Origin: an uncultured Oscillospiraceae bacterium
GTDB lineage: Bacteria > Bacillota > Clostridia > Oscillospirales > Oscillospiraceae
NCBI GenBank assembly: GCA_947626905.1
Contig: CANQUE010000008.1
Span: 1 to 55,129, forward strand
Direction of reading: 5' to 3'
DNA: 55,129 nucleotides
Of this stretch, positions 1-31,200 are shown one piece after another. The translations under genes were made by a program, and so were the position numbers. The notes under the pieces are model-generated. The model ran no database searches and had not been told where the DNA came from. It was given only the letters and a program-made list of their open reading frames with translations. How positions within the stretch are numbered: the stretch's first letter is position 1; the number at the start of each line of letters is the position of its first letter.

Positions 1-543
1 GGCCGCGGCAAGTGGTACGGCTCCGCCACCGAGCAGCTGGTGTTCGTGCCCTACCTGATGAGCGGCGTGGCCTTCTCGGCCATGTATGTGGCCATGTTCA
101 ACCGGCCCCGGCTGGGCGGGCTGATCCCGTCGCTGTACGGCACCTTCGGGCTGATCGTGCTGACCAGCGTGGTCAAGCACTTCCCCTTCGCCAGCCGCTC
201 CGGCACCGCCAATATGATGCAGATCTCCACAGAGCTGGAGGAGGCGGCGGATATCAACGGCGCCAATTTCTGGCAGCGGATGGCCAAGATCGTCCTGCCG
301 CTGGCGAAAAACGGCTTCGTTTCCGGCTTTATGCTCACCTTCATCAGCATCGCCAAGGAGCTGGACCTGATCATCATCATGATGGATAAGCGGACCCAGA
401 CCATGAGCTACCTGGCGTTCACCTATTCCCAGGAGGGCTACAACCAAATGGCGGACGCCATTTCGGTGTGCGTGCTGTTCTTCATACTGGTGTGTTATAT
501 CATAGCCAATAAATTTGGCGCAGATATAGGCAAGGCGTGGTAA
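1..543 (+). CDS. ABC transporter permease, C-terminal part (5' end outside window)
   Basis: The reading frame is open from base 1, so only the last 180 residues are present. They contain the EAA loop (EEAADINGANFWQRMAKIVLP), the cytoplasmic segment by which binding-protein-dependent permeases contact their ATPase, flanked by hydrophobic membrane segments (around LTFISIAKELDLIIIMM and AISVCVLFFILVCYIIA). The type fits iron(III)/thiamine/polyamine or sugar (CUT1) permeases. The ATPase gene begins 40 bases downstream and the binding lipoprotein follows, so this is the membrane subunit of one importer. The substrate cannot be told from the sequence. The missing 5' part may include a fused or separate second permease. 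Confidence 0.88.
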   Translation, partial: GRGKWYGSATEQLVFVPYLMSGVAFSAMYVAMFNRPRLGGLIPSLYGTFGLIVLTSVVKHFPFASRSGTANMMQISTELEEAADINGANFWQRMAKIVLPLAKNGFVSGFMLTFISIAKELDLIIIMMDKRTQTMSYLAFTYSQEGYNQMADAISVCVLFFILVCYIIANKFGADIGKAW

Positions 544-1820: not shown

Positions 1821-3185
1821 ATGAAAATGAGCAAGATCCTGGCCCTTCTTCTGGCGCTGGCGATGGTGCTGAGCCTGGCCGCCTGCGGCGGCAGCGGCAG
1901 CAGCAGTGAACCCGCAGTCGAAGAGGGCGGCGGACTCAAGGCGGAGGGCGGCGAACCCGCGGCGGAGGGCGGCGAGCCCGAGGCCGAGCCCGCCGAGGAG
2001 GGCGGCGAGCCCGCCGGCCCGTCCGTGGAGGACTCCGCGTACTACGGCCCCATCTATGACGAGTGGAGCGAGATGACCACCGATGAGCTGTACCAGGCGG
2101 CCCTGGACGAGGCCGACGGCCAGCCCATCCGCATCTATGCCACCTCCTCCAAGATGCTGAAGGTGGAGGAGGACTTCGAAGAGCAGTTCCCCGGCTTGGA
2201 TCTGGAGATCCAGGACCTGGACAACGACGAAGTCATCGAGAAGTGCCGCCTGGAGGTGGACTCCGGCAACGTGGTGGGCGACGTGATGCAGACCAAGGAC
2301 GTGAACGGCGACGTGTTCTTCGACTTCTATGAGGGCGGCTACTGCACCGCTTTCTATCCCAAGGACATCTGCGAGCACATCGACGAGACCGCCCTGCGCT
2401 TCGGCTATCCTCTGTACACCTCCCAGAGCTTCTGGTACTACAACACCGAGGAGTATCCCGACGGCCAGCCCATCCACAACTGGTGGGAGATCGTGGAGAC
2501 CAACGAGGACGGCACCCCCAAGTGGAAGCTGTTCACCAAGGAGATCGCCCAGGAGACCGCCTATATGTCCCTGTTCACCAGCTTCATCAACAACGCCGAC
2601 CAGATGGAGCAGGCCTATGAGGACCTGTACGGCGAGCCTCTGGAGTACACCTATCCCACCGACGGCAACTGGGAATTCGACTTCAGCCAGTATGAGAACA
2701 ACGCCGGCGTGGAGTACCTGTGGCGCTTCACCCAGCTGGCCAAGAGCATGACCTTCATCGGCGACGGCGACGAGCTGGTCCTGGCCGTGCACAACTCCGA
2801 GAACGGCCCCACCCTGGCCCTGGCCTCCGCCGGCAAGATCGAGAACCGGGAGGAGTCCGGCTACCACATCGGCTGGCTGACCAACCTGGAGCCCTATACC
2901 GGCCTGCAGAACTATGAGTGCCTGTACGTGGTGGAGAACTGCCCGCACCCCGCGGCCGCCCGCCTGTTCATCCGCTGGCTCACCGGTGACGCCGATGGCG
3001 CCTCCGGCGGCCTGAAGCCCTTCCAGAAGACCGGCAACTGGGTGGTCCGTGACGACATCGAGGACGAGGACAACCCCGTGCCTCTGAAGGAGACCGGCGC
3101 CATCGACTCCGATCTGGGCGCGATCTACAACACCTTCCTGGATGCCCAGGATATGTGGATCCAGTGGCTGGATATGGCCCTGTAA
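1821..3185 (+). CDS. ABC transporter solute-binding lipoprotein
   Basis: A 454-residue extracellular binding protein of the importer. The start has an AAAGGAG site 9 bases upstream. A lysine-containing hydrophobic signal ends in the lipobox LSLAAC (Cys about residue 23), so the mature protein is lipid-anchored. A low-complexity linker of repeated GGEPAAEGGEPEAEPAEE-like units (about residues 30-65) precedes the globular domain, which looks like a type-2 periplasmic fold (IRIYATSSKMLKVEEDF early, hinge-like segments later). It ends just before an intrinsic terminator. The iron- or organophosphate-type class is a guess from its partners; the ligand is unknown. Confidence 0.9.
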   Translation: MKMSKILALLLALAMVLSLAACGGSGSSSEPAVEEGGGLKAEGGEPAAEGGEPEAEPAEEGGEPAGPSVEDSAYYGPIYDEWSEMTTDELYQAALDEADGQPIRIYATSSKMLKVEEDFEEQFPGLDLEIQDLDNDEVIEKCRLEVDSGNVVGDVMQTKDVNGDVFFDFYEGGYCTAFYPKDICEHIDETALRFGYPLYTSQSFWYYNTEEYPDGQPIHNWWEIVETNEDGTPKWKLFTKEIAQETAYMSLFTSFINNADQMEQAYEDLYGEPLEYTYPTDGNWEFDFSQYENNAGVEYLWRFTQLAKSMTFIGDGDELVLAVHNSENGPTLALASAGKIENREESGYHIGWLTNLEPYTGLQNYECLYVVENCPHPAAARLFIRWLTGDADGASGGLKPFQKTGNWVVRDDIEDEDNPVPLKETGAIDSDLGAIYNTFLDAQDMWIQWLDMAL

Positions 3186-3292: not shown

Positions 3293-3874
3293 ATGGCCAG
3301 TCAGGACAATTTTGACCGCCAGATCCGGGACGCGGAGCGGGATCGGGATCGCCAGGCGCGCCGGGAGAAGTGGGCCAAGAGGGAGAAGAAGTTCTTCCGG
3401 ACCTTCCTCTTCACCGAGGACGGAAAGCCCAAGAGCAGTTTCGGCATTTATACCTTCTGCCTGAGCTTTGTGTTTTTGGCGGCGGATATGGTGATCTACG
3501 GGCTGGTGATCGACGCGCTGACGCCGCTGATGTCCTGGCCGCCGATGGTGTCCAACCTGGTCCAGGCCCTGGCGGCCACCGTGCTGACGCTGGTGATCCC
3601 CCTGGCCGTGCACTGGCTGGGAAAGGACAAGCGGCTGGCCTTTGGCAGCTACCTGTGGCTGGCGCTGTATGCCGTGGTGGTGGTGATCGCCATGGCCGTC
3701 TTCCTCCGGGGGACCGGAGCCATGGGGGCGTTTTTGGTGTTCTTCGGCTGGTTCGTGGCCATCCCGCTGGCAGCGGGGCTGGCGGTGACGGGGCTGCTGT
3801 GCCGGCGGGACCATCATCCCCCGGAGCCGGCCCAGGAGGATAAGCCCTGGAAGAAGTATACTGACAGGCGGTAA
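3293..3874 (+). CDS. Four-helix membrane protein of unknown function
   Basis: A 193-residue protein I do not recognise. The first 45 residues are strongly charged (Arg/Lys/Asp/Glu-rich, probably helical and cytoplasmic). About four hydrophobic segments follow: TFCLSFVFLAADMVIYGLVI, an ALAATVLTLVIPLAVHWL segment, ALYAVVVVIAMAVFL and AFLVFFGWFVAIPLAAGLAV. A charged tail ends the protein. It starts 30 bases after the upstream terminator, with an AAAGGGCGG-like site, and its stop lies 2 bases before the next start, so it is the first gene of a short operon. No catalytic motif is visible. Confidence 0.75.
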   Translation: MASQDNFDRQIRDAERDRDRQARREKWAKREKKFFRTFLFTEDGKPKSSFGIYTFCLSFVFLAADMVIYGLVIDALTPLMSWPPMVSNLVQALAATVLTLVIPLAVHWLGKDKRLAFGSYLWLALYAVVVVIAMAVFLRGTGAMGAFLVFFGWFVAIPLAAGLAVTGLLCRRDHHPPEPAQEDKPWKKYTDRR

Positions 3875-3876
3875 CC

Positions 3877-4830
3877 ATGCTTACGCTGCACTTTATCAAT
3901 GTGGCGGACGGGGACTGTATCCTGGCCGAGGAACAGGACGGGGACAGGACTTTCCGTCTGCTGGTGGACGCGGGGAGGCCGGAGATGGCCCCCGTGTCCG
4001 GATCGCTGCGCTGTACCGCGGCGGAATATCTGCGGGAGAAGGGGATAACCCGTCTGGACGGACTGGTGGTCACCCACTTGCATATCGACCACTTCGGGGG
4101 CCTGCGGGAAGTGTTCAGGACCGTGACGGTCGCCGACGCGTGGGCCGGCTTTTTCCCGGAGGGGCCCGGCGGGCCGGACCGGTCGAAGCTGGCGGATATC
4201 AAGACCGTGCGGGGCCTGGCGGACTGCCTGGAGCGCTGGGCGGAGGACTGCGAGGCGCTGCGGGCCATGGGCTGTCGGCTGCATACCGTGACGGAGGACT
4301 GCGAGGTGTCCTTCACGGAGCGGCTGCGGGGCCGGATCGCCTGTCCCGATCCCGCCGCCAGCGCGTACCAGCGGGGCGCCTACGGGGACATCCTGGCCGG
4401 CAGGCCCGTGCCGGAGGGGCTGCAATACTGGTCCGCCAAGTACCGCAATCCCGGCTCTCTGCGGCTGCGGCTGTTCTATGCCGGGCGGGCCGTGGAGCTG
4501 GCGGGGGATTGCTACGGCGCCGCCTGGGAGGACCGGGCGGAGCGGTGCGATCTCTTTAAGGTCCCCCACCACGGGGACGCCAAGTCCCTGACGGAAACAC
4601 TGGCGGCGCGGCTGCACCCCGCCTGGGCGGTGATCTCCTGCGGGGCGGAGTACAATCCCAAAAAAGACCGGCCCTCCCGGGCGGCGGCCGCCCTTTTGGA
4701 GCGGCAGGGGGCCCGGGTGTGGTTCACAGACCGCTTCGCCGCGCCCTGGCACGAGCCGGAGAACTGGCGCAGCGTCGATTTCATCATCAAAGAAGACGGG
4801 ACCGTGCAGGTCCCCGGGAGGCAGGCATGA
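3877..4830 (+). CDS. Metallo-beta-lactamase-fold hydrolase, ComEC-type
   Basis: A 317-residue soluble protein with the metallo-beta-lactamase signature THLHIDHFGG (about residues 66-75), the two-metal site HxHxDH, preceded by the typical N-terminal strand MLTLHFINVADGDCIL. A later Asp (ELAGDCYG) and the HHGD segment (KVPHHGDAKS) fit the remaining metal ligands. This subgroup resembles the extracellular nuclease-like domain of ComEC and stand-alone MBL hydrolases acting on phosphodiesters. No signal peptide is seen, so it is cytoplasmic. Its stop overlaps the start of the next gene (ATGA), indicating translational coupling with a HAD protein. Substrate unknown. Confidence 0.85.
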   Translation: MLTLHFINVADGDCILAEEQDGDRTFRLLVDAGRPEMAPVSGSLRCTAAEYLREKGITRLDGLVVTHLHIDHFGGLREVFRTVTVADAWAGFFPEGPGGPDRSKLADIKTVRGLADCLERWAEDCEALRAMGCRLHTVTEDCEVSFTERLRGRIACPDPAASAYQRGAYGDILAGRPVPEGLQYWSAKYRNPGSLRLRLFYAGRAVELAGDCYGAAWEDRAERCDLFKVPHHGDAKSLTETLAARLHPAWAVISCGAEYNPKKDRPSRAAAALLERQGARVWFTDRFAAPWHEPENWRSVDFIIKEDGTVQVPGRQA

Positions 4831-5582
4831 TCACATCAGTACTGTTTGACATGGGCGGGACGCTGGAGGACATTTATGTGGACGAGGCGTCCGAACGGGA
4901 GGCCGTAGAAAAGCTGCAAGCCATGCTCGCCGGCTGGGGGCTGGACCCGAAGGTGGGCTATGACCAGCTCAAGGCCCGGGTGGACGCCGGATGGGTCCGG
5001 TACGGGCAGTTCCGGGACGCCCGGGATGTGGAGCTGAAGCCCATCCCCATCTGGCGGGACTATGTGCTGGCGGATTTTGCCTTCCCGGCGGAAAAGCTGG
5101 AGCCCCACTGTGAACAGATCGCCCATATGTGGGAGGTCACCCACTACCACCGGGCGCTGCGGCCCCGGGTGGGGGAGATGCTGGCCGGGCTGAAGAGCCT
5201 GGGGCTGAAGCTGGGGGTGGTCAGCAATACCGCCGCCATGTACCAGGTGTTCGACATCCTGGAGGAGTACGGCATCCGGGACTATTTCCAGGATGTGACC
5301 CTCTCCTCCGTCACCGGGATCCGCAAGCCCTGCCCGGATATCTTCCAGGTGGCCATGCGGCAGTTGCGCTCCACGCCGGGCGAGAGCGTATATGTGGGAG
5401 ACACGGTGTCCCGGGACATCATTGGCTCCAAACGGGCCGGCTTTGCCGTGGCCATCCAGATCGGCTCCCAGCTGACCAGGGAGAAGGACAAGGGCATCCG
5501 CCGGGAGTTTGAGCCGGACTATATGGTGGAAGACATCTATGAAGTATACCCTGTGGTGAAAAAGCTGCTGGAGGGCCGGTAA
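4827..5582 (+). CDS. HAD-superfamily hydrolase with DxGGT motif (HAD-A)
   Basis: A 251-residue HAD protein. The start at 4827 overlaps the upstream stop as ATGA; an upstream in-frame extension is rejected because it runs through the preceding gene. Motif I is FDMGGTLED, with nucleophile Asp but Gly at the usual acid/base position. Motif II is VVSNTA, the motif III Lys is in IRKPCPDIF, and motif IV is YVGDTVSRD. The helical cap lies between motifs I and II (about residues 15-110). It is most similar to the HAD starting at 7063 (same MIxxVLFDMGGTL start and similar AIQI segment) and less to the three that follow that one. HAD family certain; reaction unknown. Confidence 0.9.
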   Translation: MITSVLFDMGGTLEDIYVDEASEREAVEKLQAMLAGWGLDPKVGYDQLKARVDAGWVRYGQFRDARDVELKPIPIWRDYVLADFAFPAEKLEPHCEQIAHMWEVTHYHRALRPRVGEMLAGLKSLGLKLGVVSNTAAMYQVFDILEEYGIRDYFQDVTLSSVTGIRKPCPDIFQVAMRQLRSTPGESVYVGDTVSRDIIGSKRAGFAVAIQIGSQLTREKDKGIRREFEPDYMVEDIYEVYPVVKKLLEGR

Positions 5583-5613
5583 AGAGTCCGGGCCCGAGGC
5601 GGACTGCACACAG

Positions 5614-5661
5614 AAAAACGCCCCTGCTGCGCCGGGGAAGCGGCACGGCGGGGGCGTTTGG
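5614..5661. terminator. Bidirectional terminator between convergent genes
   Basis: The arms AAACGCCCCTGCTG (5616-5629) and CGGCGGGGGCGTTT (5646-5659) form a 14-bp stem with a 16-base loop. T-rich flanks occur on both strands, serving the HAD gene on plus and the LacI-type gene on minus. Confidence 0.75.
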
Positions 5662-5682
5662 TATACCTTTGAGGGCGGAGCG

Positions 5683-6699
5683 TCAGTCTTCTCTGTTCAG
5701 CGGGGCGCAGGAGCTGCGCTCCACCAGGGTGGGGAGCAGGATGCGGTGGGAGTATCCCGCCAGCTCGCTCTGGATCTTATCCAGCAGGCTGTCCACCGCC
5801 ACAGAGGCCATCATCTTTTTCGGCTGCTCCACGGTGGTCAGGTTGATCCGGGGCAGACCGCTGTCCCGGATGTTGTCGAACCCCAGCAGGGACACATCCT
5901 CCGGGATGCGCAGGCCCGTTTCCTCCGCCGCCTGCATGATGCCCAGGGCGTTGGTGTCGGTGGCGGCGAAGATGGCGGTGTAATTCTTCTCCTGGGCGAA
6001 CAGCTGCTTTGCCAGCTGATAGCCGTATTTGATGGAGGTGGCTGGGAAGGCGTTGTTGCAGTACCGGGGGGTCAGATCCAGGTCCTTGCAGGCGGCGGCA
6101 TAGCCCTCCGCCCGGAGCTGGTGGGTGGTGCTGCCCCGGCGGCGGCCGAAATAGAGGATGTCCCGGTGCCCCAGATCATAGAGGTACTCCACGCCGATAT
6201 AGGCGCCCCGGTAGTTGTCCACAGACACATAGCTCTCCGGCACTTCCCGCAGGTTCTCCCCGATGAATACGGTGGGGATGTGGGAGAGATAGGGCCGCAG
6301 GGACTCGTAGCTCTCCGGGCCGGCCGGGAAGATCATCACTCCGTCCACCTGGCGGCCGATCATCAGCTCGAACAGCTCCCGCTCCTGGTCCAGGTTCCGG
6401 GAAGAGTTGCACAGCACGATGTTGTACCCCCGGGCCCGGGCCTGCCGGTCGATGTGGTACGCCAGCTCCGACATAAAGGGGTTGTTGACCCCGGTGAGGA
6501 TCAGGCCCAGCAGCTTGGTGCTCTTCATCACCATGGCCCGGGCCACGGTGTTGGCGGTGTAGTTCATCTCTTTGCACAGCTGCAAAATGCGCTTGCGGGT
6601 CTCATCGCTGATCTCCGGACTGCCGGACAGGGCCCGGGAAACGGTGGAATAGGACACGTTGGCCGCCTTGGCGATATCTTTGATCGTGACGTTTTTCAT
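5683..6699 (-). CDS. LacI/GalR-family transcriptional regulator
   Basis: A 338-residue repressor-type protein. The N-terminal helix-turn-helix begins MKNVTIKDIAKAANVSYSTV followed by SRALSGSPEIS, the hallmark of the family, with the hinge helix near residues 48-58 (NTVARAM). The rest is a periplasmic-binding-protein-like effector domain (LLGLILTGVNNPFMSELAY onward; VFIGENL; YFGRRRGSTTH; AIFAATDTNALGIM). It is divergent from the HAD/mutase/kinase operon, whose promoter region holds a CAAACGTTTG palindrome of the LacI type. It is therefore the likely regulator of that operon (inference). An AGGAGG-like site stands upstream of the ATG. Effector unknown, presumably a sugar or sugar phosphate. Confidence 0.95.
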   Translation of the reverse strand: MKNVTIKDIAKAANVSYSTVSRALSGSPEISDETRKRILQLCKEMNYTANTVARAMVMKSTKLLGLILTGVNNPFMSELAYHIDRQARARGYNIVLCNSSRNLDQERELFELMIGRQVDGVMIFPAGPESYESLRPYLSHIPTVFIGENLREVPESYVSVDNYRGAYIGVEYLYDLGHRDILYFGRRRGSTTHQLRAEGYAAACKDLDLTPRYCNNAFPATSIKYGYQLAKQLFAQEKNYTAIFAATDTNALGIMQAAEETGLRIPEDVSLLGFDNIRDSGLPRINLTTVEQPKKMMASVAVDSLLDKIQSELAGYSHRILLPTLVERSSCAPLNRED

Positions 6700-6744
6700 A
6701 TGTACCTCCGGGCGGAAATGTTCTACAAGTTTTTTCGTTCTCTT

Positions 6745-6773
6745 ATTGTAATTCTTTTCTTAAAAAATTGCAA
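6745..6773 (-). promoter_or_regulatory. Predicted sigma-A promoter of the LacI-type gene
   Basis: On the minus strand the -35 is TTGCAA (6773-6768) and the -10 is TACAAT (6750-6745), with a 17-base spacer. It lies about 45 bases before the ATG at 6699. Confidence 0.6.
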
Positions 6774-6961
6774 GGAGTTTTTGCAATTTGCGAGAATTTT
6801 GCGCTGGGCGCATCTGGAAGGCAGCGGAGAGGCAGAGAACACGGCCCTGGAAGGACGCTTTTCTAAGGCGGAGAAGCCCCCCGGAAAACCAGGCGTTTTC
6901 AAGGGAGGCGCCGCCGTCGGGAGCGGAGGGAAAAGGGGGCGAGAAAATCTTCTCCTTTCTC

Positions 6962-6990
6962 TTGACAAAGGAACAGGTTTGATGTAAAAT
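6962..6990 (+). promoter_or_regulatory. Sigma-A promoter of the HAD/mutase/kinase operon
   Basis: A perfect TTGACA -35 (6962-6967), a 17-base spacer and a TAAAAT -10 (6985-6990). The predicted start is near 6997. This is one of the strongest promoter matches in the window and is placed to be blocked by the operator just downstream. Confidence 0.85.
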
Positions 6991-7009
6991 CAACATCGGA
7001 AATAAAGCG

Positions 7010-7019
7010 CAAACGTTTG
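7010..7019. promoter_or_regulatory. LacI-family operator candidate
   Basis: A perfect 10-bp palindrome CAAACGTTTG with the central CG step typical of LacI/GalR operators. It sits about 13-22 bases after the predicted transcription start, where a bound repressor would block initiation or early elongation. No second copy was noticed elsewhere in the window. Confidence 0.65.
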
Positions 7020-7062
7020 AGTATTCGACGAGAGATCATCAGGAAAGGACGGTGCGGAAACG

Positions 7063-7821
7063 ATGATACGTGCGGTGCTTTTCGACATGGGCGGCACGCT
7101 GCACACCTCCTCCTCTCCCCCGGGGCAGGCGGAGTGGTTCGCCCAAAGGCTCCTGACCCGCCTGGGGGACTACGGTATCGTGCTGGACGTCACGCCGGAG
7201 AAGCTGGCGGCGCTGCTGCAGGTCAACGGGGAGGAGTACAAACACTGGTCCGAGGACAATCTCCGGGAGCTGCCCCAGGCGGAGATGTGGAGCCGGTTTT
7301 ATCTGAAGGAGTTTGCCCTGGCGCCGGAGACCCTGGAGCCCATGGCGGAGGAGCTGAGCTTCCTGTATGATTACGAGCGGACCCGGTGCATGCGCCGGCC
7401 CCATCTGCGCCAGACCATGGACGCGCTGCGGGCCATGGGTCTGCGGCTGGGGGTCATCAGCAACGTCACCAGCCGGACGGTGATGCCCCAGTATCTGGCG
7501 GAGTACGGACTGGATACATACATGGAATGCGTGCTGCTGTCCAGCGTCACCGGGGTGCGCAAGCCCGCGGCGGAGGCGTTTCGCAACGCCGAGCGGATCC
7601 TGGGCCTGGCGCCGGAGGAACTGGCGTATGTGGGGGACACGATCAGCCGGGACGTGCGGGGCGTACGGAATGCCGGCTGGCGGCTGGCCATCCAGATCGC
7701 CAACCCCTCCGTGGCCCACCGGGACGTGGGACTGGAGCATATCAAGCCGGATCATCTGATCCGGGACCTGGAGGAGATCCCCGGCATCATCCGCCGGGAA
7801 AACGAAAAAGAGATCCAATGA
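7063..7821 (+). CDS. HAD-superfamily hydrolase with DxGGT motif (HAD-B)
   Basis: A 252-residue HAD protein and first gene of the LacI-linked operon. Motif I is FDMGGTLHT (Gly in place of the usual second Asp), motif II VISNVT, motif III Lys in VRKPAAEAF, motif IV YVGDTISRD. Its closest relative here is HAD-A at 4827, on the other side of the regulator. Its stop is 43 bases before the next HAD gene. The helical cap lies between motifs I and II. A GGAAAGGACGG-like site precedes the start. Fold assignment is firm. Substrate unknown; a small phosphorylated metabolite is the usual case for this fold. Confidence 0.9.
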   Translation: MIRAVLFDMGGTLHTSSSPPGQAEWFAQRLLTRLGDYGIVLDVTPEKLAALLQVNGEEYKHWSEDNLRELPQAEMWSRFYLKEFALAPETLEPMAEELSFLYDYERTRCMRRPHLRQTMDALRAMGLRLGVISNVTSRTVMPQYLAEYGLDTYMECVLLSSVTGVRKPAAEAFRNAERILGLAPEELAYVGDTISRDVRGVRNAGWRLAIQIANPSVAHRDVGLEHIKPDHLIRDLEEIPGIIRRENEKEIQ

Positions 7822-7864
7822 GCGGCCGCGCTCTTGTGAATAAACGACACAGGGAGGAAAGACG

Positions 7865-8596
7865 ATGAACCGCAATATCGACACCATTTTCTTTGATGTG
7901 GGGGCCACGCTCCGGTATGTGGTGGAGGACCCTGAATTTGCCATGGCCGCCGACCGGGAGCTGATGGAGCTGGTGGGCGCCACCGAGCCCCACGATGTGT
8001 TTTTCGCCAAGCTGAACGAGAACTGGAAGGCCTACCGCAAGTGGGCGAAGACCGCGCTGCTGGATGTGTCGGAGATGGAGCTGTGGCTGCAATATCTGCT
8101 GCCGGACTATCCCGCCGAGCGCATCGCCCCCAACGCCCCCCGGCTGACCCGCCTGTGGCGGGACCATGACGGCCGCCGGGTGCCCCATGACGACGTGAAG
8201 GACACCCTCCGGGAGCTCCAGCGCCGGGGCTATAAGCTGGGCATCATCGCCAATACCATCACGGAGACCGAGATCCCCGACTGGATGTGCCACGACCAGG
8301 TGGCGGACTGCTTCAAGACGGTGATCCTGTCCTCCAAGGTCCGCCTGCGCAAGCCGGACCCGGCCATCTATCTGCTGGGCGCCCGGTGCATCGGCTCTGT
8401 GCCGGAAAACTGCGCCTATGTGGGCGACAACCCGGTCCGGGACGTGGAGGGCGCCGTGGACGCCGGTTTCGGCAGCATGATCCTCTATGAGAACGCGGGC
8501 ACCGCCGACCGGGAGGGCAAGACCCCCACCGTGCTGCCCGACTATACCATCAAGGCCATCCGGGAGCTGCTGGACCTGTTCCCGCCCCGGGACTGA
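7865..8596 (+). CDS. HAD-superfamily hydrolase, divergent motifs (HAD-C)
   Basis: A 243-residue HAD protein with an AGGGAGGAAAG site before the ATG. Motif I is FDVGATL (Gly at D+2, Ala next). Motif II reads IIANTI, with Ala where most HADs keep Ser or Thr. Motif III Lys is in LRKPDPAIY and motif IV is YVGDNPVRD. It forms a sub-family with the next two genes: the same N-terminal NIDTIF-type start, the same length, and a shared [ND]EI..W segment after motif II. Three in-line duplications are the simplest explanation. The loss of the motif II hydroxyl makes phosphatase activity less certain for this copy than for its neighbours. Confidence 0.88.
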   Translation: MNRNIDTIFFDVGATLRYVVEDPEFAMAADRELMELVGATEPHDVFFAKLNENWKAYRKWAKTALLDVSEMELWLQYLLPDYPAERIAPNAPRLTRLWRDHDGRRVPHDDVKDTLRELQRRGYKLGIIANTITETEIPDWMCHDQVADCFKTVILSSKVRLRKPDPAIYLLGARCIGSVPENCAYVGDNPVRDVEGAVDAGFGSMILYENAGTADREGKTPTVLPDYTIKAIRELLDLFPPRD

Positions 8597-8606
8597 GAGG
8601 GCGCGT

Positions 8607-9329
8607 ATGGAGAAGATCGAGGGCGTATTCTTTGACCTGGGCGGCACTTTGCGCATCCTCTACGACGAGCCGGAGCACCGGGCGGCGGCCCGGGCGCGGA
8701 TGGCGGAGCTGGCGGGTTACGAGGACGTGGACGGCTTCATCGATATGGTGGAGGAGCGCTATAAGCCGTATCGGGACTGGGCCCTGACGGAGAACCGGGA
8801 GAGCGGCGACTATGAGCTGTGGGCGAAATGGCTGCTGCCGGAGCTGGGCGAGGAAAAGCTGCGGGCCATCTGCCACGAGATGACCTACCAATACCGCCAG
8901 ATCAAGGGCAAGCGGTACCTGGTGGAGGGGGGCCTGGAGGTCATCCGGACCCTGAAGGACCGGGGCTACCGGCTGGGCATCATCAGCAACCTGATCGGGG
9001 AGAACGAGATCTACGACTGGCTGCGGGAGGATGGGCTGGAGGCATACTTTGACGCGGTGGTGCTCTCCTCCGTCTGCCATATCCGCAAGCCGGACCCGGC
9101 GATCTACCGCATGGGCTGCGAGGCCATGGGATTGGAGCCGGGCCAGTGCGTGTCGGTGGCGGACAATCTGGACAGGGACATCACCGGCGCCATCGCCGCC
9201 GGCGTGGGGGCCAATATCCTGTTCATCAGCCCCGAGAAGCTGGCAAAAAAGACCATCACCGACGCCAACCGGCCGGATTATATCGTGCACAAGTTCATCG
9301 ACATCCTGGACCTGCCCATTTTGCAGTGA
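8607..9329 (+). CDS. HAD-superfamily hydrolase (HAD-D)
   Basis: A 240-residue HAD protein starting at 8607, 10 bases after the previous stop, with a GAGAGG site. A longer in-frame upstream reading is rejected because it overlaps HAD-C and the family N-terminus MEKIEGVFFDLGGTL begins here. Motif I is FDLGGTL, motif II IISNLI, motif III Lys in IRKPDPAIY. Motif IV is SVADNLDRD, where Ala replaces the usual Gly before the first acidic residue. It shares the NEIYDW segment with its neighbours. Probably a cytoplasmic phosphoesterase acting with the other copies on related substrates (inference). Confidence 0.88.
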   Translation: MEKIEGVFFDLGGTLRILYDEPEHRAAARARMAELAGYEDVDGFIDMVEERYKPYRDWALTENRESGDYELWAKWLLPELGEEKLRAICHEMTYQYRQIKGKRYLVEGGLEVIRTLKDRGYRLGIISNLIGENEIYDWLREDGLEAYFDAVVLSSVCHIRKPDPAIYRMGCEAMGLEPGQCVSVADNLDRDITGAIAAGVGANILFISPEKLAKKTITDANRPDYIVHKFIDILDLPILQ

Positions 9330-9342
9330 GGGGGATATTGAC

Positions 9343-10074
9343 ATGGAGAAAAACATCAACACCATATTCGTGGATCTGGGGGACACCTTCCGGGTCATCC
9401 GCCCGGACGAGGAATATATGCTCCAGGCCAAGACGGAGATCCGGGACCTGCTGGGCGCGGACGCGGACCCGCTGGAGTTTTACAAGACCGTCATCGAACC
9501 TAGGTATGACAAATACCGCGAGTGGGCGCTGCACTATTACTGCGAGGCGCCGGAGAAGATCCTGTGGACCCGGTGGCTGGCCTATGACTTCCCCAAGGAC
9601 CGGGTGGAGGCCGCCGCGGGCAAGCTCACTTACGCCTACCGCCGGACCAAGGGTGAGCGGGTCGTCACCGAGGGCGGCGCGGAGACCGTGAAGGAGCTGA
9701 ACGCCCGGGGCTATACCGTGGCCATCGTCAGCGACCTGGTAGGCGTGAACGAGGTGGACGAGTGGCTGGACCGGGACGGCCTGCGGCCCTATTTCAAATC
9801 CGTGCAGCAGTCCTCTCTGTGCCTGATACGCAAGCCCCATCCCGCCATCTATTACTACGCCCTGGAGGAGACCGGCGCGGACCCGGAGAGGACCTGCTTC
9901 GTGGGGGACAACCTGGAGCGGGACATCATCGGGGCCAAGGCCGCGGGCCTGGGCATGACCATCGGCGTGCGCTATCCGGGGAAGAAACACCAGCCGGTGA
10001 CCGAGGAGAACAAGCCGGATCTGTTCATTACCCATTTCACCCAGCTGCTGGATATCTTCCCGCCGCTGGCATAA
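9343..10074 (+). CDS. HAD-superfamily hydrolase (HAD-E)
   Basis: A 243-residue HAD protein starting at ATG 9343, 13 bases after HAD-D. A longer upstream reading overlaps HAD-D and is rejected. Motif I is VDLGDTF: nucleophile Asp, Gly at D+2, then an extra Asp at D+3. Motif II is IVSDLV, motif III Lys in IRKPHPAIY, motif IV FVGDNLERD. It is the third of the short-start trio (MEKNINTIF) and the last HAD before the permuted mutase, whose start lies 16 bases beyond. Family certain, specificity unknown. The D+3 Asp is the most visible difference from its sisters. Confidence 0.88.
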   Translation: MEKNINTIFVDLGDTFRVIRPDEEYMLQAKTEIRDLLGADADPLEFYKTVIEPRYDKYREWALHYYCEAPEKILWTRWLAYDFPKDRVEAAAGKLTYAYRRTKGERVVTEGGAETVKELNARGYTVAIVSDLVGVNEVDEWLDRDGLRPYFKSVQQSSLCLIRKPHPAIYYYALEETGADPERTCFVGDNLERDIIGAKAAGLGMTIGVRYPGKKHQPVTEENKPDLFITHFTQLLDIFPPLA

Positions 10075-10090
10075 GGAGGAGAAGGATTCT

Positions 10091-11653
10091 ATGAGCGAGA
10101 ACGTTATGCACGGAGGAGAGGCGCTGGCCCGGGCGGTGGAGGCCGCCTATGCCCAGGGGCAGACGGATTACAGCCTGGAGCCCATGATCCTGGAGGATGG
10201 GTCCGGCGCGGCCGTGGGCCGGATCAAAGACGGCGACCAGGTGGTGTTCTGCTGCCGCCGGGGCGAGCGGGAGATCGAGCTGACCGAGGCGTTCACCGAG
10301 AAGGACTTTCCCCACTTTTCCCGGGCGTATATGCCGGATCTGACCTTCGCCATCATGACGATGTACCATGAGAAGTTCAAGGACCTGCCCATCGCCTTTG
10401 CCCCGGAGCGGGTGCAAAACTGTCTGGCCCAGGTCCTGTCCGACGCGGGCCTGCGGCAGTTCCACTGCGCCGAGTCGGAGAAGTACGCCCATGTGACGTT
10501 CTTCTTCAACGGCGGGCACAACCAGCCCTTCCCCGGGGAGACGGATCTGCGGGTGCCCTCTCCCAAGGGGATCCCCTTTGACCAGAAGCCGGAGCTGAGC
10601 CTGCCGGCGGTGGCGGAAAAGGTGAAGGGGGCCGTGGACGAGGGATATGACTTCATCGTCACCAACTTCGCCAACGGCGATGTGATCGGCCACACCGCCA
10701 ACACCCAGGCCAAGCTGGCGGCGGCCGCCATCGTCAGCCGCTATTCCAGTCAGGTGGCGGAATACGCCAAGGACCACGGGTATCTGGTGGCCATCACCGC
10801 CGACCATGGCAACATCGAAAAGCTCTATACCAAGGACGGCAAGCCCGACGGCGCCCATACCACCAACCTGGTGCCCTTCATCGTGCTGGACCCCCAGGGC
10901 CGGGATATCGATCTGCAGGACGGCCGCCTGGGGGATGTGGCCCCCACGGTGCTCAGCGTGCTGGGAGTGGACCAGCCCGCCTGCATGACCGGCCACAGTC
11001 TCATCCGCTCCGCCGGGATCACACAGAAGAAGATGATGCTGATGATCCTGGACGGCTGGGGCTTCGGCACCCACGACGAGGGGGACGCCATCTATCTGGC
11101 GGACACGCCGGATTGGGACGCGCTGCTGGAAAAGTATCCCAGCTGCAAGCTGAGCGCCTCCGGGGAGGATGTGGGCCTGAAAGCCGGCAAGGCGGGCAAT
11201 TCCGAGGCCGGCCATTCCAATCTGGGCGCGGGCCGCGTGGTGGCCCAGGACGATGTGCGCATGGACAACGCCATCAAGGACGGCTCCTTCCGCGCCAATC
11301 CGGTGTTTGCCAGCCTTCTGGAGAAGGCCAGACAGGGCCATGCCCTGCATCTGATCAGCCTGCTCACCGAGAAATCCAGTCATGGCTGCATCGACTATCC
11401 CCTGATGCTGGCGGAGATGGCCGAGGGCGTGGAGGAGATCTATCTGCACATCATCTTTGACGGCCGGAGCACCGAGCCGGGCAGCGCCCCGGCGCTGCTG
11501 CGGATGGTGGACGGGAAGCTGGCGGCCCTGGGCCGGGGCCTCATCGTGGACGGCATCGGCCGGGGCATCGCCCTGGACCGGGACGCCAATTATGGCCGGA
11601 TCGAGAAGGCGTACCGCTGCCTGGTGGAGGGCGAGGGCGCCCGTTACCGGTAA
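10091..11653 (+). CDS. gpmI: Circularly permuted cofactor-independent phosphoglycerate mutase-like enzyme
   Basis: A 520-residue protein of the alkaline-phosphatase superfamily whose segments are in swapped order. Residues about 10-305 match the later part of a normal iPGM (VGRIKDGD; EKYAHVTFFFNGG; NFANGDVIGHTAN; ITADHGN; AHTTN; MTGHSLI). A short linker (about 306-314) joins to residues 315-520, which match the normal N-terminus (MLMILDGWG; GNSEAGHSNLGAGR; FDGRS; GRGIALDRD; EKAYRCLVEGEG). Metal-site residues by family knowledge: D321, S371 (nucleophile), D197, H201, D238, H239, H256, all present at native spacing. Phosphotransfer residues R57, R60, K131, H431, R459, R491 and R497 are kept, but the Asp of GRD is Ser460. 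AAGGAGGAG precedes the ATG, so the permuted start is real. Whether it still interconverts 2- and 3-phosphoglycerate is open. Confidence 0.9.
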   Translation: MSENVMHGGEALARAVEAAYAQGQTDYSLEPMILEDGSGAAVGRIKDGDQVVFCCRRGEREIELTEAFTEKDFPHFSRAYMPDLTFAIMTMYHEKFKDLPIAFAPERVQNCLAQVLSDAGLRQFHCAESEKYAHVTFFFNGGHNQPFPGETDLRVPSPKGIPFDQKPELSLPAVAEKVKGAVDEGYDFIVTNFANGDVIGHTANTQAKLAAAAIVSRYSSQVAEYAKDHGYLVAITADHGNIEKLYTKDGKPDGAHTTNLVPFIVLDPQGRDIDLQDGRLGDVAPTVLSVLGVDQPACMTGHSLIRSAGITQKKMMLMILDGWGFGTHDEGDAIYLADTPDWDALLEKYPSCKLSASGEDVGLKAGKAGNSEAGHSNLGAGRVVAQDDVRMDNAIKDGSFRANPVFASLLEKARQGHALHLISLLTEKSSHGCIDYPLMLAEMAEGVEEIYLHIIFDGRSTEPGSAPALLRMVDGKLAALGRGLIVDGIGRGIALDRDANYGRIEKAYRCLVEGEGARYR

Positions 11654-11677: not shown

Positions 11678-12397
11678 ATGGCTGACGTACCTGTGGATCT
11701 GACCGCGCTGACGCTGGCCCCCTGGCAGGTGCTGCTGCGGCTGGGCTGCGCCATGCTCATCGGCGGCGTGGTCGGCACCGAGCGGGAGTATACCCACCGG
11801 CCCGCCGGGATGCGCACCCATATGCTGGTGGCCATCGGCGCCTGCGCCGTGATGCTCACCAGCCAGATGATCTTCACCCAGTACCGGGCCTATGGAGCCA
11901 CCCCCGACCCGGCCCGGCTCAGCGCCCAGGTGATCACGGGCATGGGCTTTCTGGGCGCGGGCACCATCATGAAAGAGGGCGTTACCATCAAGGGCCTGAC
12001 CACCGCGGCCAGCATTTGGGCCACCGCCTGCATGGGCATCGCGGTGGGCGGCGGTTATTACAGCGTGGCCCTGATCGGCGCGGCGTTCATGATGATCACG
12101 CTGGTGGTGTTCGAGGGGCTGCAGCAGAAGATGATGCGCAACCACTATGAGCTGTACCAGTTCACCATCCGGTGCACGAACCTGACCGACACCCTTGAGC
12201 ATGTGAACCGCCTGGCGGAGGATTTTGCCGCCAAGATCACTCACATCCAGGTGGAAGGCCGGGAGGGAGAGGTGGTCGTGTCCTTCAAGGCCGACTTCTC
12301 CGGCCGCCGGTCCAAGGACCGGCTGGATATGTTCGTGGCGGCCCTGGACAATGACGAGAGCACCAGCACCGTGGAGCTGGACCGCAGCCGCATATAA
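11678..12397 (+). CDS. MgtC/SapB-family membrane protein
   Basis: A 239-residue protein. The N-terminal half has about four membrane segments with the MgtC hallmarks RLGCAMLIGGVVGTERE and RTHMLVAIGAC, then VITGMGFLGAGTI and GLTTAASIW. The C-terminal 90 residues are soluble and look like the ACT-type domain of longer MgtC proteins. In other bacteria MgtC members affect magnesium and phosphate balance and the membrane ATP synthase. Here it sits 24 bases after the permuted mutase, with a CAGGAGG site, inside an operon of phosphoesterases. A link to phosphate homeostasis is plausible but inferred. Confidence 0.92.
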   Translation: MADVPVDLTALTLAPWQVLLRLGCAMLIGGVVGTEREYTHRPAGMRTHMLVAIGACAVMLTSQMIFTQYRAYGATPDPARLSAQVITGMGFLGAGTIMKEGVTIKGLTTAASIWATACMGIAVGGGYYSVALIGAAFMMITLVVFEGLQQKMMRNHYELYQFTIRCTNLTDTLEHVNRLAEDFAAKITHIQVEGREGEVVVSFKADFSGRRSKDRLDMFVAALDNDESTSTVELDRSRI

Positions 12398-12459: not shown

Positions 12460-13341
12460 ATGAAAGAATATGATCTGATGATCGTGGGCCCCGCCACCCG
12501 GGACCGGAACACCGACTATACCGGCCGGGAGGAATATATCGTGGGCGGCGCCGTCACCTACTGCACCCCCGCGGCCATGGCCGCCGGCGCGAAGGTGTTC
12601 GCCGCCGTCAAGGCGGACCCGGCCGACAAGGACATCCTGGACTGCTTTTCCATGGACCCCGCCGACATGGCGGTGCTGCCCTCGGCGGCCACGACCCTGA
12701 TGAGCAACAAATATTTCACCCCGGACCGGGAGCGCCGCCACTGCGGCTGCCAGGCCCAGTCTGATCCGGTGACGCTGGAGGAGATCCCCGCCGTGCCCTG
12801 CAAGCTGTACCATCTGGCGGGGCTGCTGTACGGCGATTTTCCCAACAGCCTGATCCAGGGTCTCCACGGCCGGGGCATGGTGTCCGCCGACGCCCAGGGC
12901 TTTTTGCGCCACAACGAGGGCGGGGAGCTGCGGTTCCACGACTGGGCGGACAAGATGACCTACCTGCCCTATATGGACTTTTTCAAGACCGACGCCGCCG
13001 AGGCGGAGATCCTGACCGGCCTTTCGGACCGCCAGGCCGCCGCGCGGCAGCTCTTCGCCTGGGGGGCGAAGGAGGTCATGGTGTCCCACAGCTCTGAGAT
13101 CATGGTCTATGACGGCCGCCGGATCTATACCTGCCCCATCAAGGCCCGGAACCTGACCGGCCGCACCGGGAGGGGGGACACCACCTTCGGCTCCTATCTG
13201 GCCATGCGCCTGACCGGGGCGGACGTGCCCACGGCGCTGGAGTACGCCACCGCCTGCGTTTCCCTGAAAATGGAGACCCCCGGGCCCTTCCGGGGCACAA
13301 AACAGGACGTGGAAGCGTATATCCGGCAGTTTTACCGCTGA
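12460..13341 (+). CDS. PfkB/ribokinase-family carbohydrate kinase
   Basis: A 293-residue kinase with a GGGAGG site before ATG. The C-terminal PfkB signature with anion hole and catalytic Asp is GRTGRGDTTFGS (about residues 231-242). The N-terminus MKEYDLMIVGPATRDRNTDY followed by GGAVTYCTPAAMAAGA is the substrate-lid half. Family members transfer phosphate from ATP to a sugar, nucleoside or related alcohol. It is the last gene of the LacI-linked operon and is followed by a strong terminator. Together with the mutase-like enzyme and HADs it suggests a substrate that is phosphorylated, isomerised and dephosphorylated. The actual sugar is unknown. Confidence 0.9.
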   Translation: MKEYDLMIVGPATRDRNTDYTGREEYIVGGAVTYCTPAAMAAGAKVFAAVKADPADKDILDCFSMDPADMAVLPSAATTLMSNKYFTPDRERRHCGCQAQSDPVTLEEIPAVPCKLYHLAGLLYGDFPNSLIQGLHGRGMVSADAQGFLRHNEGGELRFHDWADKMTYLPYMDFFKTDAAEAEILTGLSDRQAAARQLFAWGAKEVMVSHSSEIMVYDGRRIYTCPIKARNLTGRTGRGDTTFGSYLAMRLTGADVPTALEYATACVSLKMETPGPFRGTKQDVEAYIRQFYR

Positions 13342-25187: not shown

Positions 25188-25262
25188 TAGTAAGCAATTA
25201 CTTGTTATATATTGTTATTGGCAGGGTCACAACGGTCGTCCGGGGAAATGGAGGAACAAAAA

Positions 25263-28200
25263 ATGCGGATGTGGAAAAGGATCTTGGCGCTGGCGCTGGT
25301 CTTCCTGTTTGCGATGAACAGCATGGGCATGGCGCTGCCCGCCCTGGCGGACGGCGAACCGGCGGAGACCGCCGGTCCCGCAGAGCGCTCTGCGGAGCCT
25401 TCGGCCGATGAGCCGAAGGCTGATGAGGACGTAGAGAACGATACAAATATAACTACAACGGACGAAGCCGCGCCCGGGGATGACCTGGGGGCGGGCTCCG
25501 GCGTTCCCGAGACCGGGGAGCAGGAGGGCGAGGCCCAGGCTCCCGGCCAGGAGGAGAACGACGGCGCGGACGCCGAGGGCCAGCCCACCGGGGAGCCGGA
25601 AGAGGGAATGAATAATATTCAGACCCCCGAGGACCCCGCCGAGGGCGACAAGGCTCCCGCCGAGGGCGAGGACCAGACCCAGGATGAGCCCGAGAGCGAG
25701 CCCAGCTATAACTTCGGCGGCGTCGAGGAGCCCAGCTTCGACGGCCAGATGCCCGCGGCGCCGAAGGAGGAGGGCGACTCCGGCGAGGACGGCGAGGACG
25801 AGGCGGCCCCCGGCGAGGGGGAGGAGCTGCCCCAGGGCGACGCCGGCGTGATGCTCATGTCCTATGAGGGCGACATCGAGGTGGAGACCGGCGGAAAGAT
25901 CGACCTGGGCGGCGGCGATGATAACGGGAACCACCAGTGGACGATCGATGACGGCAGTCTTGCCAAACTGAGCGCTACGAATAAACCCAAGGTGACTATA
26001 ACGGCGCTGGACAAAACAGGCAGCACGACGGTCACCCATACCTACACGGACAAGGACGGAAAGAACCACAAGGATACATACAAGCTGAAGATCGTCCAGC
26101 CGACCTCGAGTACGGTAACGTTCTATCTCTACCTTGAGATCAGCGGCGAGGCCAGCGACATATTGGATGAGTACGCTGCTACGCACCCGTCGGTGTTTTC
26201 TACCTCCAATGGCCTTTGGATCGCTGCCGGAAAGGTGGATGTGCCCAATCCGCTTCCTAACGGGAAGTACATTCCAGAACCTGCGGTTTTTTGGAATTTA
26301 GGATCACTTGGCGGTGGCCCGTTCAGTGGGCGTGAGAGGGCGTCCCAATCGGAGGTCAAGGCGTATATCGCCGAACACGCGTCTATCCAAATGCACCCGG
26401 ACGCCGCGGATCTGTGGGATCTTCCCGGATTTGACTTTAGCGGCATCGACTGGACGTCCGGCCAGATTACATACGGCTTTAACGCGGACGGCTATTATAG
26501 TGGCAGTGGCGAGAAGAGCAGCTGGCATGTTAATTTTACATATAATCTGGCTTCACAGTCCGATATCACGGTCAACTATCTGGACGCGGTCACAAAGCAA
26601 CCGATCGACGGCGTCACGCCTTACACCAGGGAGCAGGACATTAACACGGCCTACGACCTTGAGGCGGAAGGCCGGGTCAAGCGCACGGACATTGAGGACT
26701 ATGAGTGGGACCACACGGAAGGCGACCCGGTCGCTGGTACGGTTTCCGGCCGGGATATCGTCGTCAACGACTACTATAAGGTAAAGGATTGCACCGTCAC
26801 TTACAAGTCCAACGGCACCGCGCCCGTCGGCTACACCGATCCCGGCTCTGTTTCCTGCAAGAAGGGCACGGGGATCCAGATCGATTACCCCGAGATCAGT
26901 GGATATACGCGGGAGGGCAACGTATACACCAAGTACGACGAGCACGACAACGTGCTGGAAAAGTATACCTTCAGCGGCTGGAACAATGGGGGAGAGAACT
27001 TCAGCGGCAAAACGCTGAAAGTAGAAGGCGACGTCACCCTCACCGGCGAATGGACCCTGGTGGAGACCCATAAGCCGGAGGAGTACCAGCGGGATATCGT
27101 CGTCCAGTATGTGGACGGCAACGGCAATACGATCCACGCCCAGAAAACGGTCGGTCAAAAGTACGTAAATGAGACCTATAATGTGACTGGCCAGATCGAA
27201 ACCACCATCACAGGTTATAACGGGAACCAGTATGTCCTTAGAAAGACGGAAAACGCCTCGGGCAAGGTCAGTGGCGAGGGCGATGTCATCGTCACGGCCG
27301 TGTACGACATCGACCTGACCGGGGACGGCCAGGCGGACAAGGATCAGACCTTGAAAGTGGAGTTCAAGGGCAACGAGAAGGAGTATACCTATGACGGCGA
27401 GAGCCATGCGGCCGAAGGCTATACCATCACCGTATATGTGGACGACGTCCAGGTGTATGCGGGCCCGGCCGGCAGCGCTCCTGCCTGGCTGATGCGTGCG
27501 AGTTACAGCGGCGGCGTCGGCGGTCTGCGCATCACCGGAACGGACGCGGGCACCTATCCGTTGAAGCTGGACAGAAGCAACTGCAATGTGAAAACAAGGC
27601 AGAGCTTCAAGGCTACTGAAATCAGCACGGTGGACGGCCAGCTGAAGATCAACAAGCGGCCCATCACCATCACCATCCAGGGCACTGACGTAAACAAGCC
27701 CTATAACGGCGAGGAACAGAGCAACGCGGAGTTCACCGTGACGAAGCCCGATCTGGGCACCGAGATGCTGAATCGCGTTGTTTCCAGCCTGCAGGTGAAG
27801 GCCTTGACGGAGGCGGAGAAGAAAGCCGTCGCCGCCAGCGGCACCGACGCCGATACATACACGCAGACGCTGACGAGCCACACGTTCCAGCTGGAGGGCA
27901 CGAGCGCCAAGAACTTCGAGGTGACTTTCTCCGTCACCAACGGCACCCTCACCATCGACAAGGCCAAGGTCACCGTCCAGGCCAACGGCGGCAGCAAGGA
28001 ATACGACGGCAAGCCGCTGGAAGCGGAGGGCTATGCGGTCACCGGGGGCCAGTTCTTCGGCGACGATGAAAGCAACTACACCTTCACCGTGAGCGGCAGC
28101 CAGACCACCCCGGGCAGCAGCAACAGCACCGTGAAGTGCACCCCGAATGCCGGCATTCACGAGAACTACGAGATCACCACGAACGAGGGCACGCTGACGG

Positions 28201-31200
28201 TCACGGGCCGGAAGACCCCCTTCGAGATCACCGTCCAGGCCAAGTCGGACGAGGTCACCTATAACGGCGAGCCCCAGAAAGTGGACGGCTTTGATACGCT
28301 GACCTTTGAGCAGAACGGCGTGACCTTTGAGGTGGAGGGCCTGAGCGCCCACGCCGAGGGGACCGACGCGGACGAGTATCCCTCTGTGGTCCAGGGCGAC
28401 GCCATCGTGTACCAGACGGTGGACGGCGAGAAGGTCGACGTGACGAGCCAGTTCGCCGTGCATAAGGAGAACGGCAAGCTCACCATCAACAAGGCCTCCA
28501 TGACCGTAACGGTGACGGGGGAGACGATCGAGCAGCCCATTCCCTATGACGGGAATGACCACTCCGTAGAGAAATATACCGTATCGGCCCAGTGCGACAC
28601 CGTGGAGGCGCTGAAGGCCGGCCTGGAGATCGGGCTGGAGGACCTGGCGTCGGCGTACGGCGTGACTTTGACCGTGGAAGGCAACAAGGTCACGGGGACC
28701 AACCAGGGCGATTACGCTACTAAGATCCAGGCGGTGACCAACGATCCGAAGAACTATGACGTAACGGTCAACGTCGTGGACGGCGGCTTTACGATCCGCC
28801 CGGCTCTGGTGGGCGAGATCGAAGCCACCGTGAGCCTGGCTGGCTGGACCTATGGCGACGAGCCCAACGATCCGGCGTCCAGCGTGACCTGGGCGACGGG
28901 CGATCATGCCGGCCAGACGGTGACGGGATACGGCCCGGTCAAGTATACTTATTCCAGCGACGGCACGACTTGGTCCGACGAGGTGCCCACCGATGTCGGC
29001 GAGTACCTGGTCAGAGCCACCTGGGATGCCACGGCTGACGGCAACCTGCCCGCTAAGACCGCGCAGGTCCAGTTCTCCATCTCCCCGCGGGAGATCACCG
29101 TCCAGGCCCCGGATATGACCAAGGCCTCCGACGAGGCCGATCCGGCGGTGGACGCCAGCAAGGCGGTCATCACCGACGGCGAGGTGAAGGCGGGCGACGA
29201 TCTGGGCCTGACGTTCATCTATGAGGCACATGACAATGTGCCCGGCGTGAAAGAGGACGTCATCACCGGCATCGGCAGCAATCCCAACTACGATATCACT
29301 GTCCTGCCCGGCGACCTCACCATCGATCCCGTCATCACGGTGACGGTGGACAACGGCAGCGCGGATCATGATGCGCGGACCGTGGTGAAGTACAGCGAGG
29401 ACGGCGCGACCACCGTCACCTTCACGGCGGAGGAGGGCTATGCTCTGGATACCGTGACCGTGGACGGCGAGGCCGCGACGCTGAGCGAAGAGAATACCTA
29501 TACCTTCAACGACAACACAAAGAACCATGACATCCATGTGGTCTTCTCCCTGGATGAGACCGGCGACAAGGTCCCCGACCAGTACCAGGCGAAGGTGACC
29601 TATAAGATCGAGAACGGCACCTGGGCCGACAGCACCACGAAGGAAATCACCAAGGTGGTGGACCTGTATGAGCTGAAGGACGGCAAGTGGGAGAAGATCG
29701 CCGACGCCGACGTCGACATGAATCCCCCCACGGGGATGCAGCCCGCCAAGGGCTATGACAAAGAAACGGGCGCTTGGGATAAGGACCTGAAGGTCCCCGC
29801 CCCGGAAACGACCGTCACCTATACCTATTCCTTTAAGCTGCAGACGCACACCGTAACGGTGAAGTATGTGGATCAGAATGGGCAACCCATCGAGGGGAAG
29901 GCAGACGATACCTATTCCTTTGAGTACGGCGCGGACATCAGCGACGTGAAAGGGCCGGCGATTAATAGCACCTTCACTGCTGGCGGCAAGACCTACCGGG
30001 TCAGTAGTAAAGATAACTCGCTCCCCAACGAGATGGGCGAGGATGATCTGACCATCATCGTCCGTTGCTTCCTGCAGGTGACCGTGTCCTATGAATTCGC
30101 GGCGGGCAAGCCCGAGTCCTGGACGGCCCCCGAGGCGGCCACCATGGACGTGAACACGAAGTATACCGTTGACAGCGCCACGTATGAAGACGTGGTCAAC
30201 GGCAAGGTCAAGTACCACTTCGCCGGCTGGTACAAGGGCGATGAGAAGGTCGAGACCTTCGATGTCACGGAGGACACCACCCTCACCGGCAAGTGGGAAA
30301 CGATAGAGGCCCATGAGGTCAACTATCAGAACGCGCCCGGCAAGGATAACTGGGTGTTGAGTTCTTTCAGTGAGTTTGACCAGTACAAAGCCTGGCCCAA
30401 TGGCAAGGCCCGGTTCCCGGGCGACGTCTTCTCCATCAGTGAAGACGCCCCCGCCTGGACGGCCGAAAAGACGGTCACCGCAGTCGATGAGACCAACGGC
30501 AAGACCTATGCTTACACCTTCTCCGGCTGGTTCACGGACCCGGATTGCACGCAGCCGGCCGCGGACAAGCAGACCATGGCAGACGGGCTGATGACGTTCT
30601 ACGGCTACTGGACCAAAGAGCTGAAGAAGTACACCGTTACCGTCCAGTTCGTGGACGAGGACGGCAACACTCTGAACGCGAATGCATGGAGCGGGGAATT
30701 CGAGTCCGGCGCGACCTATGAAGTGCCCAAAGAAGCCATCCCCACCAGCATCCCTGGCCCCGATGGCGTCAGCTATGCCAAGGATAGGGTGGACGGTGCG
30801 CTCACCGGCACCATGCCCGCCGATGACGTGCATATCACGGTCTACTACTCCGTGGATAAGAACGGCGACGGCACCCCCGACAAGTACCAGATCACCGTGA
30901 AATACGAAGTGGTCAACGGCGCTTGGAACGACGGCGAGAAGGCGGACGTGGAGGTAGTGGTGACCCTGATGGAAGGCGGTAAGCCCTCCGAGACCGGCTC
31001 CGCCACCCTGACTCCTCCCGCGGTGGGCAATGAGCCCGATGATGGCTATAAGGCCGGCGCTTGGGGCGAACCGGCCCCCGGCACCGTGACCGCGGACAAT
31101 GACGGCGACACCTACACCTACACCTATGAGAGGGACGACACCAAGACCCAGCCGACCTCCTACACGGTCACTTACACGATCGAGGGAGAGAATCCGGAAA

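Follow-up and report, generated by a model that had tools for sequence, protein, structure and literature searches.

A naturally permuted relative of cofactor-independent phosphoglycerate mutase with a putative role in a bacterial inositol-phosphate utilization cluster

The window analyzed here, the whole 55,129-nucleotide stretch of DNA from an uncultured Oscillospiraceae bacterium, opens within a conserved gene cluster. Its upstream edge carries the C-terminal part of an ABC permease (positions 1-540, forward strand; residues 430-609 of a relative), followed on the same strand by a UgpC/PotA/PhnT-like ABC transporter ATPase scoring below NCBIfam cut-offs (584-1705), a solute-binding lipoprotein (SBP_bac_1, 1821-3185), a small protein with hydrophobic stretches and no Pfam match that recurs in the cluster (3293-3874) and a metallo-beta-lactamase-fold protein, which is a variable cluster member (3877-4830). 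An array of five HAD genes (4827-10074), each conserved separately, is interrupted by a divergent LacI-family regulator on the reverse strand (5683-6699), with one HAD gene upstream and four downstream of it. These are, all on the forward strand, HAD1 (motif FDMGGT, 4827-5582), HAD2 (FDMGGT, 7063-7821), HAD3 (FFDVGAT, 7865-8596), which is the best conserved of the five, HAD4 (FFDLGGT, 8607-9329) and HAD5 (FVDLGDT, 9343-10074). Directly downstream of HAD5 lies the gene of a 520-residue permuted protein related to cofactor-independent phosphoglycerate mutase (iPGM), from now on referred to as cpPGM (10091-11653, forward strand). A likely ribosome binding site, AAGGAGG, can be read in the sequence at 10073-10079. 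Two further forward-strand genes encode an MgtC-family membrane protein, another variable member (11678-12397), and a PfkB-family kinase that is closest to TM0415, a PPi-dependent inositol kinase (12460-13341).

Across the loci compared (L001 and L004-L089), orthologues, defined by >50% identity and >85% coverage, were counted 56 times for HAD5, 51 times for HAD4, 47 times each for HAD3, HAD2 and the PfkB kinase, 41 times for LacI and 30 times for HAD1; these counts include the window's own copy and some genomes fetched twice, and many loci end inside the cluster. The best NCBIfam matches of the ATPase and the fused permease are importers of glycerol-3-phosphate, polyamine, molybdate, sulfate and 2-aminoethylphosphonate, all below cut-off, and the solute-binding protein has no relative in the PDB at E 1e-5. 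HAD phosphatases normally carry a second aspartate in their DxDx motif. All five HAD proteins of the window keep the nucleophile aspartate and have glycine where this second aspartate is expected, and the motifs seen across loci are FDMGGT, FDLGGT, FFDVGAT, FFDLGGT, FVDLGDT and similar. HAD3 matches assorted HAD structures in the PDB (best E 6e-10) that indicate no specific function.

cpPGM consists of the two parts of an iPGM in exchanged order. Residues 1-305 (10091-11005, forward strand) represent the later part of the native chain, with residues 15-305 aligning to residues 219-509 of Geobacillus iPGM, and hold D197, H201, D238, H239 and H256 as well as R57, R60 and K131. A linker of six residues (306-311; 11006-11023, forward strand) connects the native C- and N-termini, and residues 312-520 (11024-11650, forward strand) represent the native N-terminal part (native 3-214), holding D321, S371, H431, R459, S460 (native D154), R491 and R497. 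The chain is cut at native 214/215 and does not have the native order. The first-pass annotation had described this gene as a permuted phosphoglycerate mutase encoded in a single frame, and the alignment of both halves to the Geobacillus enzyme bears out the permuted order; a model of cpPGM, one of the checks put forward at that stage, matches iPGM and has its fold. NCBIfam model TIGR01307 matches the whole protein with 462 bits (cut-off 330.65) as two stretches, and each piece alone scores 276 and 190 bits, under 330.65. Phosphopentomutase (DeoB), another mutase of the superfamily, gives a weak match of 20-26 bits, far under NCBIfam cut-offs. The permuted order may have arisen by tandem duplication followed by loss of the outer parts; no duplicated remnant was seen at the ends of cpPGM in the rows displayed.

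Homologues with the same order, which the first-pass annotation had suggested looking for, were found in 56 full-length rows, referred to as clade A, and in 11 more distant genomes. A permuted match is present in seven of 300 genomes of the same family, the source genome included (64-100% identity; the match in G258 is partial), and scanning named genome records revealed 56 permuted loci, 50 of which yielded full-length rows. These 50 rows and six from the family sample make up the 56 clade-A rows, of which 49 are <98% identical to one another and a few are the same organism reached by two routes; partial loci (L008, L081-L083, L086, L088 and L089) were left out of the row counts. More widely, clade A is rare, with two of 391 class genomes and two of 295 order genomes, source genome included. 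The 11 distant genomes, each with one collinear match of 41-44% identity (partial in G1256), come from a phylum sample of 398 genomes, belong to other classes and form two groups, B1 and B2. The cut position is identical across the permuted rows displayed. Among plasmids, 44 records matched, all at <60% identity, and the best 5 of the 44 did so in two pieces, as an ordinary iPGM would.

In a quick IQ-TREE analysis, 26 permuted and 28 ordinary rows (Geobacillus included) are split by a branch with an SH-aLRT of 100; this unrooted tree holds 54 of 67 rows, 13 having been removed by hand as near-copies or for speed. As this fully supported branch sets the permuted rows apart from the ordinary ones, a single origin of the permutation would suffice for the sequences compared. 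The usual chain order of iPGM is taken as ancestral, as inferred from the wider superfamily. No non-permuted relative with the substrate site of the permuted family was present among the matches listed, and the non-collinear ones among these are at most 47% identical.

The metal and nucleophile residues of iPGM (native numbers D12, S62, D403, H407, D444, H445 and H462) are kept in 56/56 clade-A rows and also in 10 aligned B rows, so that the intact metal site read earlier from the window's protein holds in all these rows. Likewise, H123, R153, R185, R191, R261, R264 and K336 are invariant in the 56 clade-A rows. Together with D154, these seven are what we take to be the substrate residues of iPGM. 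Native D154, presumably a substrate residue itself, is serine in 56/56 clade-A rows (compared with 24 ordinary iPGMs), corresponding to Ser460 of cpPGM. Comparing 35 permuted rows (25 A, 6 B1 and 4 B2, with the contig-edge-cut L141 left out of B1) with 31 ordinary ones, 13 columns are fixed differently, fixed meaning at least 90% within a group: G121S, V122S, S124G, D154S, M189L, W195Y, E231Y, N259C, F260R, P262G, A265E, Asp to His at 299 and T334S. The new arginine at native 260 is Arg56 of cpPGM. Most of the changed columns are next to residues by which known enzymes bind phosphoglycerate.

Genes for inositol catabolism accompany the cpPGM cluster of clade A in three different arrangements. 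In G300, iolE and iolD (over NCBIfam cut-offs) lie next upstream of the permease with iolB- and iolG-like genes (below cut-off), and these genes recur as a set in G301; G303 has its iol genes in divergent orientation to the permease, and in G328 they are located on the opposite side, beyond PfkB. The permease of the source genome is encoded in two pieces, residues 430-609 at the edge of contig C8 and residues 4-290 at that of contig C15. As iolE-B-D-G are on C15, the iol genes very probably adjoin the upstream end of the window. IolD over cut-off was detected in eight of the 300 family genomes, the source genome among them, that is, in 6/7 genomes with cpPGM vs 2/293 others (Fisher p 2e-10, ignoring kinship). 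Fifty of the 56 loci were used for wider counts, where IolD is over cut-off in 44/50 cpPGM genomes; in 10 of these it shares a contig with cpPGM at a distance of 6-20 kb. G783, among the most distant clade-A genomes (62%), has only a HAD gene beside cpPGM and IolD elsewhere. G729 is without IolD, and its cluster adjoins genes for IolG (452 bits, cut-off 355), IolM (504, cut-off 450), IolN (291, cut-off 245) and an IolO-like protein below cut-off (179 bits, cut-off 300), a Thermotoga-type IolGMNO set. Neither IolD nor IolM over cut-off was present in G258, G313, G315, G318, G321, G337 and G349. The iolD-type and IolGMNO pathways share only the inositol/inosose step, and the module of cpPGM, HAD proteins and kinase should therefore act at or before inositol. 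To our knowledge, no described iol cluster combines a permuted iPGM with a TM0415-like kinase and an array of HAD genes. Two loci (L093:1-7639 and L097:3487-11507) have an iol cluster that additionally encodes a LarA-type racemase, which is nickel-dependent, and a transketolase-like subunit, suggesting an unusual lower inositol pathway.

The kinase encoded downstream of cpPGM was compared with known structures using a profile of 11 orthologues, for which all PDB matches at E <1e-8 are TM0415 structures (best 6e-54). According to a partial text of the study of this Thermotoga maritima enzyme, it converts myo-inositol to Ins(1)P with PPi and not ATP (PMC5931981). The Km for inositol given there is high at 12 mM, which makes the acceptor of TM0415 itself uncertain; the true one may differ (PMC5931981). 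Mapped by hand, the inositol contacts D11, N78, Q141 and R145 of TM0415 correspond to D15, N83, Q146 and R150 of the window's kinase and are invariant in 11 rows. The PPi residues K171, R229, R232 and M266 are also kept, while F221 is replaced by I227, leaving four of five in common. The window's kinase thus probably adds a bacterial protein to the PPi-dependent group of TM0415.

Based on the conserved cluster and its co-occurrence with two inositol pathways, we propose that cpPGM, a natural permutant of the iPGM fold with a retooled substrate site, has a role in an inositol-phosphate utilization cluster of clade A, a reading that we regard with evenly balanced confidence. The substrate, the import step and the action of cpPGM as a mutase or phosphatase are the parts of it that we infer. 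The anion-type ABC importer would bring in an inositol phosphate, for example a product of phytate breakdown. Ser371 of cpPGM, forming a phosphoserine with the help of two metals, would take over a phosphoryl group from this substrate, which the kept arginines and the extra Arg56 may hold, and pass it on to a neighboring hydroxyl (mutase) or to water (phosphatase). The HAD proteins could shift or remove other phosphates, and the TM0415-like, probably PPi-linked kinase might act on inositol or an inositol monophosphate, linking it to PPi. The free ring would then enter inositol catabolism via IolG. Counting against this reading are the seven cpPGM genomes with neither inositol marker, the glycine in place of the second aspartate in the HAD proteins, the below-cut-off matches of the transporter, the high Km of TM0415 and the genomic settings of B1 and B2. 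A bolder and rather doubtful version is that one permutation gave rise to an inositol-phosphate phosphomutase with the chemistry of iPGM, shuttling phosphoryl groups between vicinal hydroxyls by means of Ser371 and two metals. It would move a phosphate that is difficult to remove, for example the axial 2-phosphate that phytases leave behind, to a neighboring position accessible to the HAD proteins or the kinase, letting gut bacteria feed on phytate leftovers.

An alternative is that cpPGM has remained a phosphoglycerate mutase, present as an additional, permuted copy that is co-regulated with a catabolic operon and serves lower glycolysis. With iPGM/GpmI (1ejj; TIGR01307) it has in common the fold, the metal ligands, the nucleophile and the catalytic Arg, Lys and His residues, and its TIGR01307 score exceeds the equivalog cut-off. 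However, it is permuted at 214/215, carries D154S and 12 more fixed differences around the substrate, is 37-45% identical to ordinary rows and differs in gene neighborhood, being linked to inositol genes and not to glycolysis genes. Further, an ordinary iPGM (683 bits) is encoded elsewhere in the source genome, on a contig other than that of cpPGM. An ordinary iPGM is likewise found, at least in part, in 36/50 cpPGM genomes and was not seen in the other 14/50, 13 of which were tested for a cofactor-dependent PGM, with six over cut-off and seven not. These 14 genomes mildly favor a retained mutase activity; the missing enzyme could reflect gaps in metagenome-assembled genomes (MAGs), or cpPGM could serve in its place there. 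A housekeeping phosphoglycerate mutase is thus not favored given the ordinary iPGM elsewhere and the fixed substrate-site changes, cpPGM is probably not the glycolytic mutase of the cell, and we consider retained mutase activity unlikely. cpPGM belongs to the iPGM lineage by descent and is not classed as a phosphoglycerate mutase because both chain order and D154, when tested, differ from that enzyme. Of the name given in the first-pass annotation, the permutation and its natural occurrence have held up, and the mutase identity is called into question by the substrate site, the second iPGM and the inositol neighbors.

The genomic settings of B1 and B2 bear on a second alternative. In B1, an ABC transporter ATPase is located beside cpPGM in 7/7 loci (L131-L134, L136, L140 and L141), in 6/7 together with a permease, and the operons of the three loci with genes listed (L131, L132 and L140) also encode a GntR-like regulator and a solute-binding protein. 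One L131 operon protein matches cyclic 2,3-diphosphoglycerate synthetase (cDPGS) at E 1e-127, and its counterparts in L132 and L140 look alike by eye. The L131 importer is PhnS2/PhnU2-like; this operon (L131:3916-10634) combines an organophosphate-type ABC importer with a permuted iPGM-like gene. Among the four B2 loci (L135, L137, L138 and L139), a phosphohexomutase-like gene is near cpPGM in three and RapZ-like genes are found in three, as called by eye and named by match for L135 only. B1 and B2 share the substrate-site changes and adjoin cDPGS or phosphohexomutase-like genes, not inositol genes; the changes may therefore not be specific for inositol phosphates, and the inositol tie is one of clade A only and not of the permuted family as a whole. 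Accordingly, the entire family might use vicinal bisphosphates as substrates, for example 2,3-bisphosphoglycerate or the cyclic form of this compound, with the arginine at native 260 holding the second phosphate and the clade-A inositol link being a use of that activity or partly coincidence. F260R and D154S, common to clades A, B1 and B2, as well as the synthetase and importer of the L131 operon are consistent with such a role. Clade A, however, lacks an adjoining synthetase and is linked with two inositol pathways, and B2 shows neither context, making this an improbable account overall.

It is very improbable that cpPGM is non-catalytic or regulatory and retains only the fold, as the loss of D154 throughout clade A might suggest, given that the 56 rows show no variation at the seven metal and nucleophile positions or at seven other catalytic ones and that dN/dS (NG86) of 0.14-0.47 among five close cpPGM rows points to purifying selection. 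An assembly or binning artefact, conceivable because the named sources are MAGs or uncultured records, can be rejected with near certainty, since the same join recurs in one frame in the 56 full-length rows from many assemblies and in the 11 distant genomes, with a separate ordinary iPGM in the source genome.

The permutation is coupled to fixed changes in the substrate site and to new genomic settings and therefore represents a case of topology change with probable change of function. A literature search of partial coverage found no natural iPGM permutant in print and, among the matches listed, no paper describing this gene cluster; iPGM paralogues are called rare in a passage of an earlier article (PMC2964296). 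By analogy, a gut source of inositol phosphates for the cluster is plausible, since Ins(2)P and inositol are reported as intermediates of phytate breakdown by Mitsuokella in an excerpt of another study (PMC7618129). Should an inositol phosphate prove to be the substrate, gut and rumen bacteria would have in this cluster an intracellular pathway for phosphates derived from phytate, and a misleading automatic name would be corrected, as TIGR01307 labels cpPGM a phosphoglycerate mutase. Elsewhere in the window, an open frame of 2962 amino acids (25212-34100) carries a single MucBP domain and short repeats close to its end and probably encodes a large surface protein.
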